64,000 nt of DNA from SAR324 cluster bacterium (GTDB taxonomy: Bacteria; SAR324; NAC60-12): NCBI GenBank assembly GCA_015232315.1, contig JADFZZ010000001.1, forward strand, positions 272,835 through 336,834. Reading direction: 5' to 3'. This document shows, one piece after another, positions 1,853 through 7,628 of this stretch. A program made the translations under genes and the position numbers. Position 1 is the first letter of the stretch, and each line of letters opens with the position of its first letter. Under the pieces are notes generated by a model. The model ran no database searches. It saw only the letters and a list, made by a program, of their open reading frames with translations, and had not been told where the DNA came from.

Positions 1853-4800
1853 ATGAGTCTTTTTTCCAAAATGGTCGGAAAGAAAAGCTCTCCCACATCG
1901 GCAAAAAAAGGGGTGACGCCAGCAAAAACGGCTGTAACTCCGCAAAAAAACAAAACAACCTCTGTTAAAAACACACTCGCTCCAGTTGTATCTGAAAAAG
2001 ATAATTTTTCCAAAAAATCTCCCCAATATTCTCAACAACTGGAATCCCTGAAAGGACTGCATCAATGGTTTTTTCCGGGGGCTGTTCCTGAGGAAATGAA
2101 TGAACTTCTGCCCAAAATATTACGAGTACTTCAGGATTACACGATCACTGAGGCTCTGGAGCAATCTTATCCTGCGGATAGTCTGAATGATTATAAAAAT
2201 TATGCTGAACTTGAATTCAAGACGATGGGAGAGACCAACAGATTGCGTTGCCAGAGTCTTTTGGAACTAGCCGAAGAAAATTTGCGGAAAGTGATTTTTG
2301 AACTAATTATTTTGTTTCATATTAACCCTGAAAATACCGCACCTGTGGAGGTTACCCCGAAAACCAGGCATTTTGATGAAGCCGGGCGCCCTGTTGTTCA
2401 AAAATACTCCTTTGATATTTTTCCCTCTGGTTGCATTTCAGGAATTGAGGGCATCACGCGTTTTCTTCCGAAAGAGAGTATTGAAAATAAGGGTGGTTTG
2501 TATGATGTGTTGAAATTCGAATATCCATCGCTCATGGAGCACTTCCAGAAAAAACAGGGGCCGTTTGCGATCAAGGCCTTGACCACACTGGGCAGTCTTG
2601 GCGGCATTGGTCATAAACAGGATTCAGATATTGACGCGCAGATTGTGATCAACAGCAGTCCTGAATACAATTATCGATGGAATGATGGTGATTTTTTTAT
2701 TGCAATCCTTACCAAGGTTTTGTGTCGTGTTCAGGCCTATTTCTGGAACAGTGTACTGAGCGAAGGGGAGCGAAACGTTATTAAAAATCAGGCCTTCCAG
2801 ATTCTTCAAAAGAGGGTTGGAGGCGCTGTGCCCCTGGAGGATCACAAACTGATTCCAGAGATCTTCCCCAGTTCCATTCAGCATGAAATCTTTCGTTTGA
2901 GTTGGGACCGCTTCCTGGTAATTCCTCAAAAGCAGCAAACAGCCATCATCTGGAAAGAGTTGGCTGAGACGATTTCCGTGTTTCCTCATATTTCAGCATA
3001 TCTGCAGTGTTTCATCGATTTTTTCCCGTTTTTACAGCAGGTTCCCAAGGAAAAAGTGCATCTACGGTGTCTGCCGTTTTATAAAGAGCAGATCGACCAA
3101 AATGCTGTTGTGCAGTGGCTTTCGGGATTCTATGCGGACGCAATGAATCCCAACGATAGAGATCTGTTGCTGAAATACATTGCCAAAAAGAAAAATATTT
3201 CAGTGGACCAGATTCCACCGAAACTCAAGTATGCGGTGTTTCTGGATCATTTGACCAAGTCTCCTTCCCGCTGGTCCATTCTCAACGAATTTCTGAATTA
3301 TCTGTCAGAACGCATTCCCTTTCATCAAAGCAAAACATCTCTGACAAAAATTATTCCGATTCTGCGTGAGATGTATGATCCTCAAAACCGGTTTTTTAAC
3401 AATACCAGGATTGAGGCCATCCAGGAACAGAGCAAACAACGTTTTCGCAATCAGATGGTAGTCCTGATTGAGGAATACGAAGATTGGGAAGCACAGAAAG
3501 GCGAAGCGGTTCATGAAATTAATTTTTATAAAAAGACCAAGGTGGTTGAGCAGTATTTGAGCATGAAATATCCGGATGTGGAAATTCATTTGTTTACCAA
3601 TTTATTGAGAAATCAACGCCGGGGCAAACACACACCTTTTCTGGTATCACCTGAAGGGAGCATGGCTTATTATCTGATGTTGAATGATCTGTTGCTCAAT
3701 CCGTCGGTGCTCTTTTGTGGGATTTCACCATTTCCATTTGATATTCCTCATGAATTTAAAGTTTTAACGCGAGTGGGCGTTTGCGCGAATCAAAACTGGA
3801 ATATGAACCAACTCAGAGATGGGGCCCAGGAAAAATTTTCAATACAGCAACTGCCGGATTGGGGACAGGTGGACATTTCCAAAGATGTCTTTCTGGAACA
3901 TGCCATTCCAATTTTTCTCAGGGAAAGCGAGAAAGTAAGCCATCGCAATCTGCCCAAGGCCTTGCTGAATTGCTGGTGGATCGAGATGATTTGCGGCACC
4001 GGTGAGGATGACCATTGTGTCCCAACCAGCCTGACACGGTTGTTGTGGAATCCGAATCAGCGGTATTTTATACGTGAAGGCGTGGAGAATGAATATGTCA
4101 TCATCATTCGTACTCTTGAAAGTGATTATCCTCAGCTTCAACAGGATCCCTGGTGGATCAAATTCACGGAAATGCTGACCCGTACCAAAGATTCCATGGT
4201 TCAAAAACAGATGGTGTATTGTTTTGCGCAACATGTCCGGATTTCTGACATCATTAATTTTAACAATGAGGCAAAACCCATCTGGATCGATAAAAATGAG
4301 GCTTCCTGGCGTCTGAAATGTTTGATCAACTTTTATGAATTGTTTTTTAAGGATCAGGAAGAGCGCATCAATCTGATGAAATTGGCACAAGGACGAGATG
4401 ATGTTAGCCACAAAATGGAACTTCTTCTGAAGCAGACCTTTCTCAAATCGATGCAGAATGTGGAAAAAAGAATTTTGACGTTCAACCAGAAACGGGCCAT
4501 GCAAAAACTGGTTCCTTACATCAACAAGGCGACTGCTGGTAAATATACTCCGGATGAAATCCGTGATTTTCTGGATCCTCTGCTCAAAATTCTTTATCAA
4601 AAAATCGTGATTGCTGATGAGTCAATCCTGGCACTGCCTGTTGCGGACCTGGATCAGATTCAAAAAATCCAGCTTCAGGAACTTAAAAAAGAGCGGAGCA
4701 AACTGGAGCTGGTGAGCAATAATATTCTGGATTTTTATCAATCCCAGAATTTTAAGATGGAGGGCAACACCATCAAAAAAATTATTTTAGGCTCCAATAT

Positions 4801-5731
4801 CAAAATGGGCGGCAATGCAATGGAAAATTTTATTTTCAAATACCATTTTGAAAAGAATTTTGAAAAACGTCCTTTTCAGGTGCCATTGCCCATTTCCAAA
4901 ACACTGTGCATCCCGCGTAATAAAATTTCTATTGAATTTCTTGATAAAAACCAAAAATGGCTGTTCAAGTCGATTATCAGCAAGAAAGAAGCCCGTCGGT
5001 CAGGAACCTTTCTTGATAATGAGATGGCCATGTTCACCGACCATTTGATTCAGGGACTGGCACGTTGTGTTTTCAGTGGTTACATCGGTTTTGACTCCAG
5101 GAATATGACTTATTTTGAGAAACCCGCGTCATCCTCTAAAAAACCAATTGCGACCAACCCTGTGACTCATCAGGATCTTCAGTTTCTGGCGGCGGAATTC
5201 AACCAGTTTTTTCAGCCGATTGTCGTGTCATCACGGGAATTTTTGAATGATACCCATTATTTACGAGATATTTTTATGGTGTGTCATGTCAATCGGCACA
5301 ATATTTTGTCGCTGGTTGTGCGTGATAACCTGGATAGCAGGTTTGTGGTCGATATGGATATTTCCAATATTGAAGTCAGGATGGAAATGAAACATCCTGG
5401 AATGGGAGAAAAATTCCCTCGATTTTTACAACAGCTTTATAGTACAGAATGCCGACAGCTCTTCCTGTCAACATTAGACCAGTTGAAAATTCCCCTGGAT
5501 CATGAAAAACCTCCAAGAGTAAAAATCTGGGTTAACACCGGAAGTTTCAATTTATCGGTGGCTCCCAAATTCTATCGGGTTTATGTGGATGGCATCGTAA
5601 ACGATTTATGGCCTGATGACGTGACCAGTCCTCATTTTCTGAATCCTGCACCGTTGAAAAAGTCGTTTGACGTCATGGGTAAAGACGCGATTCGTGTTTA
5701 TCAGGAAAATCAGGGCAAAGCGACTGGATGA
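1853..5731 (+). CDS. class I adenylate cyclase-like protein (nucleotidyltransferase fold)
   Basis: 1292 residues, soluble, with no membrane segment visible. The first 55 residues are Lys/Pro/Thr/Ser-rich and look disordered. Residues about 247-261 read GSLGGIGHKQDSDID, which matches the GS...DxD active-site pattern of nucleotidyltransferases and the position of the GSxxSxGQ...SDLDIW motif in class I (CyaA-type) adenylate cyclases. Near the C-terminus (about residue 1240) FYRVYVDG parallels the FYQIVKVDG found close to the end of E. coli CyaA. The protein is about 450 residues longer than enterobacterial CyaA. If the assignment is right it makes cAMP from ATP; a non-cyclase nucleotidyltransferase is the alternative. 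The start has GGAGC six bases upstream. It lies 56 bases before efp on the same strand. Confidence 0.55.
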   Translation: MSLFSKMVGKKSSPTSAKKGVTPAKTAVTPQKNKTTSVKNTLAPVVSEKDNFSKKSPQYSQQLESLKGLHQWFFPGAVPEEMNELLPKILRVLQDYTITEALEQSYPADSLNDYKNYAELEFKTMGETNRLRCQSLLELAEENLRKVIFELIILFHINPENTAPVEVTPKTRHFDEAGRPVVQKYSFDIFPSGCISGIEGITRFLPKESIENKGGLYDVLKFEYPSLMEHFQKKQGPFAIKALTTLGSLGGIGHKQDSDIDAQIVINSSPEYNYRWNDGDFFIAILTKVLCRVQAYFWNSVLSEGERNVIKNQAFQILQKRVGGAVPLEDHKLIPEIFPSSIQHEIFRLSWDRFLVIPQKQQTAIIWKELAETISVFPHISAYLQCFIDFFPFLQQVPKEKVHLRCLPFYKEQIDQNAVVQWLSGFYADAMNPNDRDLLLKYIAKKKNISVDQIPPKLKYAVFLDHLTKSPSRWSILNEFLNYLSERIPFHQSKTSLTKIIPILREMYDPQNRFFNNTRIEAIQEQSKQRFRNQMVVLIEEYEDWEAQKGEAVHEINFYKKTKVVEQYLSMKYPDVEIHLFTNLLRNQRRGKHTPFLVSPEGSMAYYLMLNDLLLNPSVLFCGISPFPFDIPHEFKVLTRVGVCANQNWNMNQLRDGAQEKFSIQQLPDWGQVDISKDVFLEHAIPIFLRESEKVSHRNLPKALLNCWWIEMICGTGEDDHCVPTSLTRLLWNPNQRYFIREGVENEYVIIIRTLESDYPQLQQDPWWIKFTEMLTRTKDSMVQKQMVYCFAQHVRISDIINFNNEAKPIWIDKNEASWRLKCLINFYELFFKDQEERINLMKLAQGRDDVSHKMELLLKQTFLKSMQNVEKRILTFNQKRAMQKLVPYINKATAGKYTPDEIRDFLDPLLKILYQKIVIADESILALPVADLDQIQKIQLQELKKERSKLELVSNNILDFYQSQNFKMEGNTIKKIILGSNIKMGGNAMENFIFKYHFEKNFEKRPFQVPLPISKTLCIPRNKISIEFLDKNQKWLFKSIISKKEARRSGTFLDNEMAMFTDHLIQGLARCVFSGYIGFDSRNMTYFEKPASSSKKPIATNPVTHQDLQFLAAEFNQFFQPIVVSSREFLNDTHYLRDIFMVCHVNRHNILSLVVRDNLDSRFVVDMDISNIEVRMEMKHPGMGEKFPRFLQQLYSTECRQLFLSTLDQLKIPLDHEKPPRVKIWVNTGSFNLSVAPKFYRVYVDGIVNDLWPDDVTSPHFLNPAPLKKSFDVMGKDAIRVYQENQGKATG

Positions 5732-5787: not shown

Positions 5788-6357
5788 GTGGTTGTGTACG
5801 AAACATCCGATATTCGCAAAGGATTACGTGTTGAAATTGATAATAACCCCTATGTGGTGATTGATTTCCAGTTTGTAAAACCCGGAAAGGGAAATGCCTT
5901 CACTCGAACCCGAATCAAGAACATGTTGACCGGAGCTGTGCTGGATCGAACTTTTAAAACAGGCGAAAAACTCAAACCCGCCAATATGGAAGACAAAGCG
6001 GCTCAATATCTGTATAAAGATTCTGCCTGCCATTTCATGGATACCAGCAACTATGAACAGCTTGAAGTGTCCATGGACCAGGTTGGAGACGCTATCAATT
6101 ATCTGGTTGAAAACATGGAGGTCAACCTCAGTTTTTATAATGGAAGAGCCATTGGCATCACACTGCCTAACTTTGTCATTCTGGAAATTGTGGATACCGC
6201 TCCGGGAGAGAAAGGCAACACGGTCACAGGTGCCACGAAACCCGCTACGCTTTCTACAGGCCATATGGTGTATGTTCCTCTGTTTTTTGCGACCGGTGAG
6301 TTTGTCAAGGTGGATACACGAACCGGCGAATATGTGGAACGGGTTAAAGTCAAGTAA
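5788..6357 (+). CDS. efp: translation elongation factor P
   Basis: 189 residues, the usual length. EF-P binds ribosomes stalled at consecutive prolines and promotes peptide-bond formation. The three-domain KOW/OB architecture is recognisable from residue 5 (ETSDIRKGLRVEI) to the C-terminal TGEYVERVKV. The tip of the first loop reads KPGKGNAF with Lys at residue 34, exactly the position beta-lysylated by EpmA in E. coli. The reading frame begins with GTG at 5788; the ATG at 5784 is out of frame. The stop overlaps the ATG of epmA by one base, so enzyme and substrate are translationally coupled. No lysine 2,3-aminomutase (epmB) is visible in the window. Confidence 0.95.
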   Translation: MVVYETSDIRKGLRVEIDNNPYVVIDFQFVKPGKGNAFTRTRIKNMLTGAVLDRTFKTGEKLKPANMEDKAAQYLYKDSACHFMDTSNYEQLEVSMDQVGDAINYLVENMEVNLSFYNGRAIGITLPNFVILEIVDTAPGEKGNTVTGATKPATLSTGHMVYVPLFFATGEFVKVDTRTGEYVERVKVK

Positions 6358-7628
6358 TGCTTCATAGCAGACAGACGCCATACCGGACACATCGGAAGCC
6401 TCTTCTTTCCATCGAAAAGCTTGACGCGGGACAATATGCCGGCCGATTTTCGGGTTATGTAGAAGGTGAAAAAACATTTGCCTGGGTTCTGCTCGAGGAG
6501 GTAGCGTTTAAGTTATGCTTTCAGCAGTATCCTCAAATCCCTGAAGGTGCCATTATTCGCTTTGACGTGGATCACTCCTGTCACGTTCTGGATGTTGAAA
6601 TTCTGAATTGTCCTGTCACGTCTGTGCCTGCGTCAGGAGATGTTTTAAGGTGGCGTCAGGGAACTGTGCCAAGAATGAAGATCCTGCGGGAACGTCACAG
6701 TATTTTGCGAGATGTCCGGAACTGGTTTGATCAACAGGATTTCATGGAAGTCCAGACGCCCTGCCTTGTGCAGGCTCCCAGTCCGGAAGCACAGTTTTTT
6801 CCGTTTCGAGTGGAAGAAGATAATTATCTGATCACTTCACCTGAATTTCAGATGAAACGACTGCTGGTCGGCGGTTTCGAGCGCATTTATCAGATAACAA
6901 CCTGTTTTCGTGGAAAAGAAAACGGGAGCCGGCATAATCCTGAATTTACGATGCTGGAATGGTACAGGGCTTTTGACACATTGGGTCGTATTTATCAGGA
7001 TTTACTTGAATGCCTCGTTTGTGTTACAGAAAACCATCTGGCGCGGACAGGTGGCAGTGATTCGATTTTTCTGAAACCATGGCAATATGCCTCTGTAGCA
7101 GAAGTTTTTCAGGAATATTTACACCTTCCTGCTGAAGCTTTACTGTCAAAGCACGCACTTAAATTGCACGCCTTGGAGCAGAAACACGGAGCATGTCTGG
7201 AAAACGCAGAGAGCTATGAAGAAATTTTTTTTCGCTTATGGCATCTCATGGAACCCAAATTGGGCCACTCCAGTCCAATTGTGGTCTATGACTGGCCTGT
7301 GCAACTTGCCAGTCTTGCCAGGACTCGGGAAGATCATCCTGAGTTTGTGGAACGTGCGGAACTGTATGTTTCCGGCATGGAATTGTCCAATGGTTTTGGT
7401 GAATTGATCGATGCGTCAGTTCAGCGTCAGCGTTTTGAGCAGAATCTGGTGGATTATGCAGAGATCCATCGTCGCCTGCCACCGCTTGATGAATGTTTTT
7501 TATCCAGCCTCGAACAGGCTATGCCCCCCAGCGCCGGAATTGCGTTGGGTCTGGACAGAGTTGTCATGTTGCTGACTGGAACCACTTCCATTCAGGATGT
7601 TTTGTGTTTTGCGTGGAATGAACGATAA
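6357..7628 (+). CDS. epmA: EF-P-(R)-beta-lysine ligase, N-terminally extended
   Basis: 423 residues. EpmA is a class II lysyl-tRNA synthetase paralogue that attaches lysine or beta-lysine to Lys34 of EF-P. The catalytic core runs from about residue 105 (RHSILRDVRNWF): motif 2 region CFRGKENGSRHNPEFTMLEW, and motif 3 GIALGLDRVVMLL near the C-terminus. E. coli EpmA is about 325 residues and has no anticodon-binding domain. Here about 95 extra residues precede the core, containing a beta-rich segment (RFSGYVEGEKTFAWVLLEE) that could be a reduced OB-like domain. The start overlaps the efp stop. Neighbour and core motifs make the EF-P modification role likely; a lysyl-tRNA synthetase proper would have a larger N-terminal domain. 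Confidence 0.9.
   Translation: MLHSRQTPYRTHRKPLLSIEKLDAGQYAGRFSGYVEGEKTFAWVLLEEVAFKLCFQQYPQIPEGAIIRFDVDHSCHVLDVEILNCPVTSVPASGDVLRWRQGTVPRMKILRERHSILRDVRNWFDQQDFMEVQTPCLVQAPSPEAQFFPFRVEEDNYLITSPEFQMKRLLVGGFERIYQITTCFRGKENGSRHNPEFTMLEWYRAFDTLGRIYQDLLECLVCVTENHLARTGGSDSIFLKPWQYASVAEVFQEYLHLPAEALLSKHALKLHALEQKHGACLENAESYEEIFFRLWHLMEPKLGHSSPIVVYDWPVQLASLARTREDHPEFVERAELYVSGMELSNGFGELIDASVQRQRFEQNLVDYAEIHRRLPPLDECFLSSLEQAMPPSAGIALGLDRVVMLLTGTTSIQDVLCFAWNER

Follow-up and report, generated by a model that had tools for sequence, protein, structure and literature searches.

EpmA, the ligase that attaches a lysine to elongation factor P (EF-P), has been described in passages of two earlier publications as a lysyl-tRNA synthetase (LysRS) without the anticodon-binding domain (PMC2821294, PMC4231759). 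The locus analyzed here raises the question of what an EpmA that carries about 92 additional N-terminal residues represents and where these residues came from. It lies in a 64,000-nucleotide stretch of a SAR324 cluster bacterium (GenBank assembly GCA_015232315.1, contig JADFZZ010000001.1, positions 272,835 to 336,834, forward strand), hereafter the window, to which all positions below refer unless another contig is named. An initial annotation, made from the letters of the window alone, had proposed an efp gene overlapping an N-terminally extended epmA and an EpmA of intermediate appearance between LysRS and the known enzyme. Taking all evidence together, we consider it quite probable that the epmA product is a working EF-P lysine ligase orthologous to EpmA/PoxA and that its first ~92 residues are a remnant of the ancestral N-terminal OB (anticodon-binding) domain of LysRS.

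Family assignment of the SAR324 EpmA

The epmA gene and its parts are as follows.

6357 to 7628, forward strand: epmA, EF-P lysine ligase with a predicted N-terminal OB domain, 423 amino acids (TIGR00462; alignment of relatives)
6429 to 6602, forward strand: predicted N-terminal OB domain, residues 25 to 82 (AlphaFold2 models, fold searches, profile links)
6636 to 6674, forward strand: conserved linker GDxLRWR...PRM, residues 94 to 106, joining the OB domain to the catalytic domain (alignment A1, see below)
6684 to 7613, forward strand: class II LysRS-type catalytic domain, residues 110 to 419 (TIGR00462 match over 110 to 418; alignment of crystal structure 3a5z over 93 to 423)
7542 to 7544, forward strand: codon of Ala396, at a position where LysRS has Gly and EpmAs have Ala (alignment of 118 EpmA and 12 LysRS rows)

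The product exceeded the cut-off of the EpmA equivalog TIGR00462 (300.1 versus 286.9 bits), with a match confined to residues 110 to 418, and scored just below that of a second equivalog model, NF006828 (261.6 versus 264 bits). The LysRS model TIGR00499 gave only 196.3 bits against a cut-off of 427.6, which places the protein outside LysRS, and the source genome has a separate gene for a normal full LysRS (contig C29 of G000). The class II catalytic landmarks were kept in the alignment, as was the EpmA-type Ala396; this position held Ala in 117 of the 118 EpmA rows, the remaining row having a gap, whereas all 12 LysRS rows held Gly. We take Ala396, in number and in meaning, to correspond to Ala298 of E. 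coli EpmA.

The N-terminal extension is in frame and under purifying selection

Judged against the E. coli EpmA crystal structure 3a5z, which aligns to residues 93 to 423 of the model, the extension measures about 92 residues, close to the 95 first proposed. Alignment A1 comprised 26 of the 30 loci (L002 to L031) drawn from the family and order of the source genome, leaving out L011 (in-frame TAA in the extension), L020 (no match to the motif used), L022 (indistinguishable from L021 in the N-terminal part compared), and L030 (contig end). The extension was present in 25 of these 26 EpmAs, L031 being the one without it. D95, R98, W99, and R106 of the linker region were invariant across all 26 rows, and R30 and G64 were nearly so. 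Moreover, an SRxTPYRTH-like N-terminus was common to five genomes of four genera (the source genome, G002, G004, G005, and G010), the last four of which combine it with a 1- or 4-base overlap with efp. The ratio of nonsynonymous to synonymous substitution rates (dN/dS) was 0.11 to 0.33 for the extension and 0.07 to 0.35 for the catalytic part in nine pairs, which were chosen by us and are not all independent, some rows having been used twice. These findings confirm that the extension is real, in frame, and under purifying selection. Outside the order but within the same class, all nine EpmAs examined (L155 to L163) were core-only by our reading, a tenth locus (L164) being cut by a contig end. 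Residues 1 to 102 matched no Pfam family at expectation values (E) up to 1.

As a side observation, the TAA of L011 (genome G011) falls inside the OB part of its epmA and reflects either an assembly error or decay.

A predicted OB domain in the place occupied by that of LysRS

AlphaFold2 predicted residues 25 to 82 as a five-stranded barrel (strands 25 to 35, 38 to 46, 49 to 55, 66 to 71, and 76 to 82). The full-length model, built from 27 aligned sequences, had a mean predicted local distance difference test score of 88.4, with 82 to 90 in the OB blocks, and the domain folded alone showed the same five strands. In comparisons of the full-length model by VIA, EpmA crystal structures aligned from residues 93 to 95 only (3a5z, residues 93 to 423, 309 aligned, root mean square deviation [rmsd] 2.0, Z 39.1), whereas LysRS crystal structures aligned from residues 9 to 24 through to the C-terminal end (3e9h, residues 23 to 423, 386 aligned, rmsd 3.0, Z 37.4; 9slz, residues 20 to 423, 389 aligned, rmsd 2.7, Z 36.9). 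Because the LysRS crystals span the extension and those of EpmA begin at about residue 93, the extra domain is placed, in the predicted models, where LysRS keeps its anticodon-binding OB domain.

For the isolated domain, the first Foldseek match was a LysRS, and those Foldseek neighbors that we recognize are mostly OB folds. VIA returned LEF-3, Rim1, SSB, RPA, and the OB domains of AspRS/AsnRS at Z 7.0 to 8.8 (best rows, LEF-3, Rim1, and AspRS/AsnRS), in a range where the program warns that values below 8 may reflect a common arrangement only. The barrel and its OB neighbors assign the domain to the OB fold in the predicted models, with Foldseek E-values not below 0.01. Two predicted structures and three comparisons with known ones thus upheld the suggestion of a beta-rich, possibly reduced OB domain. 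Since the model shows an N-terminal OB that the core-only EpmAs do not have, we file the SAR324 EpmA as an OB-bearing variant.

Profile links to LysRS

Profile comparisons with hhalign related the OB domains stepwise. Those of 27 EpmAs from outside SAR324 matched 15 LysRS OBs with a probability of 82%, an E-value of 1e-5, and a score of 33.5, a value obtained with two of the 27 segments (L190 and L202) cut too far upstream, while the controls reached at most 12.8 (20 column shuffles) and 12.5 (EF-P domains and a catalytic stretch). The SAR324 OBs in turn matched the 27 other EpmA OBs at an E-value of 1.9e-4 (probability 47%), or 3.9e-6 (87%) when the linker was included, suggesting that the SAR324 domain is tied to LysRS via the OBs of other phyla and not directly. 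A search of PDB sequences with the OB profile returned nothing significant, the best E-value being 0.078 (RMI2).

An attempt to prove descent of the SAR324 OB from LysRS directly by sequence failed, the profile scores lying near those of the shuffle and EF-P domain III controls.

Distribution and phylogeny of OB-bearing EpmAs

Among the 80 loci of a wider search, we read 11 as encoding an extended EpmA, 3 of them from SAR324, and the rest were short or left unclassified. The extended ones from outside SAR324 came from Sandaracinaceae, Polyangiaceae, another Myxococcales record, Bacteriovoracaceae, one Latescibacterota, one Uhrbacteria, one record filed under Alphaproteobacteria, and one filed under Proteobacteria that groups with Myxococcota. 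The 30 Myxococcota loci included 18 extended, 8 short, and 4 unclassified (L185, L186, L199, and L200), and the 30 Bdellovibrionota loci 15 extended, 9 short, 3 LysRS, and 3 unclassified (L221, L224, and L232); these labels were assigned by eye, L187 and L213 repeat L036 and L093, and the sampling favors matches to a partly extended query, so that the counts are not prevalences.

Trees of the catalytic domain were rooted with LysRS. L187, L213, L240, and L242 were left out of the larger tree as duplicates or near-duplicates, and L191 and L231 are absent from it through trimming; rows L012, L017, L019, L027, L037, L043, and L164 were omitted from the trees, in part by thinning, and L051 was lost at trimming. 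EpmA and LysRS were split with full support (100/100 in one tree; Shimodaira-Hasegawa-like approximate likelihood ratio test [SH-aLRT] 100 in the other), with all EpmAs in one clade and the SAR324 proteins nested inside it. The initial proposal of an intermediate between LysRS and EpmA holds for the architecture, a LysRS-placed OB without the conserved anticodon residues (see below), but not for the phylogeny.

Within the EpmA clade, the extended Latescibacterota and Uhrbacteria rows were placed near the root, while the core-only EpmAs of Gammaproteobacteria, Alphaproteobacteria, and Thermodesulfobacteriota were nested, partly on weak forks. A two-state model gave a higher log likelihood with the OB present at the EpmA root than absent (−39.5 versus −43.6; without LysRS, −35.1 versus −41.0), and the fitted rate of OB gain was near zero when EpmA was analyzed alone; a parsimony cost that punishes gain likewise favored presence. 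We hold with moderate confidence that the OB domain is ancestral in EpmA and was lost repeatedly. On this view, SAR324, a large part of the sampled Myxococcota and Bdellovibrionota, and a few further lineages would have kept the remnant, which would have disappeared several times in other lineages, among them the one leading to E. coli.

Two EpmAs filed under Alphaproteobacteria, L063 with the extension and L068 without it, grouped next to SAR324 in the trees, joined in the larger one by L225 of Bdellovibrionota.

Alternative origins and functions of the extended EpmA

Several observations weigh against an ancestral, LysRS-derived OB domain, in addition to the two misplaced profile segments and the by-eye labels mentioned above. 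In most of the nine pairs, the dN of the extension is roughly double the value for the catalytic part. Direct comparison of the SAR324 OB with the LysRS OB gave an E-value of 0.3 in one run and 0.05 in another, where the score of 14.8 was hardly above the best of 20 shuffles (13.7) and EF-P domain III (14.4). The Foldseek E-values for the isolated domain were weak (best, 0.016), and LysRS was absent from its best 50 VIA rows. In the trees, the short L072 (Paceibacter) stands near the root beside the extended L041 (Uhrbacteria), equal-cost parsimony within EpmA was tied at 11 versus 11 changes, and costs that punish loss favored absence of the OB at the root (16 versus 18 and 16 versus 20). A secondary gain, in which an OB or a similar small barrel was fused, perhaps several times, to a core-only EpmA, would account for the missing direct profile match, for the undecided parsimony, and for the SSB-type and AspRS/AsnRS rather than LysRS domains that top the VIA list. 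It accords poorly with the full-length model, where position, linker, and orientation are the same as in LysRS, with the 1e-5 match between the EpmA OBs of other phyla and LysRS, with the near-root lineages, which bear the OB except for L072, and with the near-zero gain rate. Considering both sides, we regard a secondary gain as quite unlikely.

Two further explanations can be set against retention of a LysRS-derived OB domain. The initial annotation itself had named a mis-called start, with the extension absent from orthologues, as the finding that would undo it. Translation from an internal Met or Val near residue 105 would restore the core-only form in which EpmA has been described, but the extension is in frame and carried by 25 of 26 relatives, has an N-terminal motif that recurs in four genera, is under purifying selection, and is predicted to fold stably, leaving a wrong start with a negligible chance. 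At the other extreme, the LysRS-like arrangement of domains could mean that the OB has kept its ability to bind tRNA(Lys) or some other tRNA, which would make the protein a dual synthetase and EF-P ligase, a true functional intermediate. This is highly improbable in view of the EpmA-type Ala396, the normal LysRS encoded on contig C29, and the lack of conservation at the anticodon-reading positions in EpmA OBs.

Present role of the OB domain

Four positions that we take to read the anticodon in E. coli LysRS, R78, F85, Q96, and E135, were invariant in all 15 LysRS OBs and were not conserved in 53 EpmA OBs, among which the alignment is uncertain. The Q96-like column held Q in 7 of the 53 and the E135-like column a gap in 51. 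As for the OB landmarks, 51 of the 53 EpmA OBs have the G of GD and 27 have the D, whereas conservation of the GR landmark is circular because GR was used to cut the segments; the near-invariance of R30 and G64 in alignment A1 is independent of that cut. Only the commonest residues per column were tabulated. Because the anticodon-reading positions are not conserved and a full LysRS is present elsewhere in the genome, charging of tRNA by the SAR324 EpmA appears unlikely.

EF-P is a mimic of tRNA, its lysine taking the place of the tRNA 3' end (PMC4231759). An OB domain in the LysRS position could therefore touch the body of EF-P. The most likely role for the domain would be support of the fold or dimer, contact with the EF-P body, or both; a purely structural remnant and a contact surface are equally possible. 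A more specific history, which we offer tentatively and think somewhat doubtful, is that EpmA did not simply shed the OB at its origin but at first retained it, its task changing from anticodon reading to holding the EF-P body, with the core-only form of E. coli as a later reduction. If this is true, the OB-bearing EpmAs in SAR324, Myxococcota, and Bdellovibrionota show in present-day organisms how recognition of tRNA was turned into recognition of a protein that mimics it.

Which lysine is attached to EF-P

The initial annotation had seen no epmB in the window and had left open whether alpha- or beta-lysine is attached. The genome search agreed on the first point, the sole EpmB/KamA match of the source genome lying on another contig than efp (G000:C23:10893-12011). 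This protein exceeded the cut-off of the KamA family model TIGR00238 (285.7 versus 199.2 bits) and fell below that of the EpmB model TIGR03821 (253.9 versus 369.3 bits), so that it is filed as KamA family only; it was nearer to the lysine 2,3-aminomutase model, again below the cut-off (405.3 versus 525.4 bits). In a tree, all its clade partners were SAR324 relatives (9 rows, SH-aLRT 99). A passage of an earlier survey describes EpmB as being without the C-terminal multimerization domain of lysine 2,3-aminomutase (PMC2821294). The C23 protein has 246 residues after the Cys motif, nearer to the 238 of the efp-linked L046 than to the 289 of L120, and ends 34 residues after PGGGGK, shorter than L120 and similar to several other relatives; its LAM_C match covers model positions 2 to 55 of 127, with ends of similar length in several relatives. 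Neither ablB, which would point to osmolyte synthesis, nor EpmC was matched in the source genome. It is plausible that the C23 protein acts as EpmB. EpmA, for its part, would use ATP to activate a lysine, (R)-beta-lysine by analogy, and join it to the loop lysine of EF-P.

The wider family complicates this answer. EpmA was found in at least 27 of the 31 genomes of the source family; G001, G013, G023, and G030 had none among the matches listed, and G003 and G026 had pieces. A KamA-family protein over the cut-off was found in five of the 31, all of them EpmA-positive, two more having generic matches below 20 bits. Among the matches listed, 22 of the 27 EpmA-encoding genomes, including the 99% complete G008, thus paired EpmA with no KamA-family match over the cut-off. 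The initial question is answered in part only: the source genome has a candidate elsewhere, but most of its EpmA-encoding relatives have none over the cut-off. The EpmA-type Ala was kept in all 16 aligned EpmAs from KamA-less genomes, so that the pocket shows no sign of a switch to alpha-lysine. At the thresholds used, a single column of the catalytic domain (334 in our protein, Phe to Val) changed specifically in the KamA-less set, compared with a set that includes EpmAs from genomes unsearched for EpmB. Beyond SAR324, 12 genomes were searched: a KamA-family protein accompanied the OB-bearing EpmA in eight of nine, the exception being Uhrbacteria, and the short EpmA in one of three. The genomes of L041 (Uhrbacteria) and L072 (Paceibacter) encode EpmA and gave no KamA-family match.

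In G005, of the same family, the KamA-family protein L126 grouped with alphaproteobacterial EpmB-like proteins and not with the SAR324 clade, indicating transfer or contamination.

An EpmA that, in the SAR324 lineage, attaches alpha-lysine or a lysine form derived from outside instead of EpmB-made beta-lysine would fit the many EpmA-encoding family genomes without a KamA-family protein over the cut-off, and PoxA can use alpha-lysine, if less well, according to passages in two publications (PMC9437257, PMC5354580). The source genome itself, however, has a KamA-family protein that exceeds the family cut-off and gave no match to ablB, which would point to osmolyte synthesis, and the EpmA-type residue at position 396 persists in every aligned EpmA from the KamA-less genomes, which makes alpha- or outside-derived lysine a rather unlikely substrate.

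efp and the efp-epmA junction

The neighboring gene and the junction comprise the following features.

5788 to 6357, forward strand: efp, elongation factor P (listed GTG start; TIGR00038 over the cut-off)
5887 to 5889, forward strand: Lys codon in the KPGKG loop, homologous to Lys34 of E. coli EF-P (sequence; PGKG motif as given in a passage of PMC2821294)
6357, forward strand: end of the efp stop codon and start of epmA, one-base overlap (TAATG)

The efp product scored 241.6 bits against the NCBIfam model TIGR00038 (cut-off, 185.8) and possesses three EF-P domains and the PGKG loop lysine; efp was matched only once in the source genome. In six relatives (L009, L013, L016, L017, L018, and L019), a stop codon lies one codon ahead of the conserved ETSDIRKG, with a single codon in between, which makes the GTG at 5794 a more likely start than the one listed at 5788. 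The lysine in KPGKG was correctly recognized at the outset, but its number changes: with the start at 5794, the residue expected to be modified is Lys32 rather than Lys34, the latter being the number of its E. coli homologue. The one-base overlap was likewise confirmed, base 6357 being common to both genes. Among relatives, the overlap was 1 base in L006 and 4 bases in L003 to L005, and at least 21 bases separated the two genes in the remaining relatives with efp seen upstream. In the source genome, epmA is probably cotranscribed and translationally coupled with efp.

The EF-P loop of L003 and L004 (genus g5) reads VNPGKG instead of VKPGKG and so lacks the Lys that stands three residues ahead of the predicted modification site. 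Upstream of efp, an open reading frame at 1853 to 5731 (1,292 residues) gave a weak match to an adenylate cyclase N-domain (PF12633, 23.4 bits, below the cut-off of 27).

Comparison with known systems

Neither an OB-bearing EpmA nor EF-P modification in SAR324 was found in the titles and abstract starts of the searchable PubMed Central literature. The SAR324 EpmA is provisionally a known enzyme with a probably ancestral domain, in an architecture that is new as far as this literature shows. If a degenerate OB persists in many EpmAs, living intermediates make it possible to test how tRNA charging gave way to protein modification.

For the modification pathway, the nearest precedents are symbionts. 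A passage of a 2010 survey lists only two organisms with EpmA and without EpmB, Buchnera and Planctomyces limnophilus, and calls them symbiotic (PMC2821294), and a passage of a 2015 review likewise confines incomplete EF-P modification systems to symbionts (PMC5354580). As in these two organisms, EpmA is kept without EpmB in the KamA-less SAR324 genomes, although here the state extends to most EpmA-encoding genomes of one family, as counted above. These genomes offer a case outside the symbionts reported so far in which to ask whether beta-lysine is required by EF-P at all.

The EpmA of E. coli and Salmonella (PoxA, GenX, YjeA; PDB 3a5y, 3a5z, and 3g1z) shares the catalytic domain with the SAR324 protein, at 34 to 36% identity over the structural alignment, likewise adjoins efp, and has the same pocket residues, including the EpmA-type Ala, but is without the ~92 N-terminal OB residues. 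Class II LysRS (LysS/LysU), in contrast, shares the order of OB and catalytic domains, their relative placement in the model, and the GR and G(D) landmarks of the OB, and differs in its conserved anticodon-reading residues, in the Gly at the position of Ala396, and in forming a separate clade.

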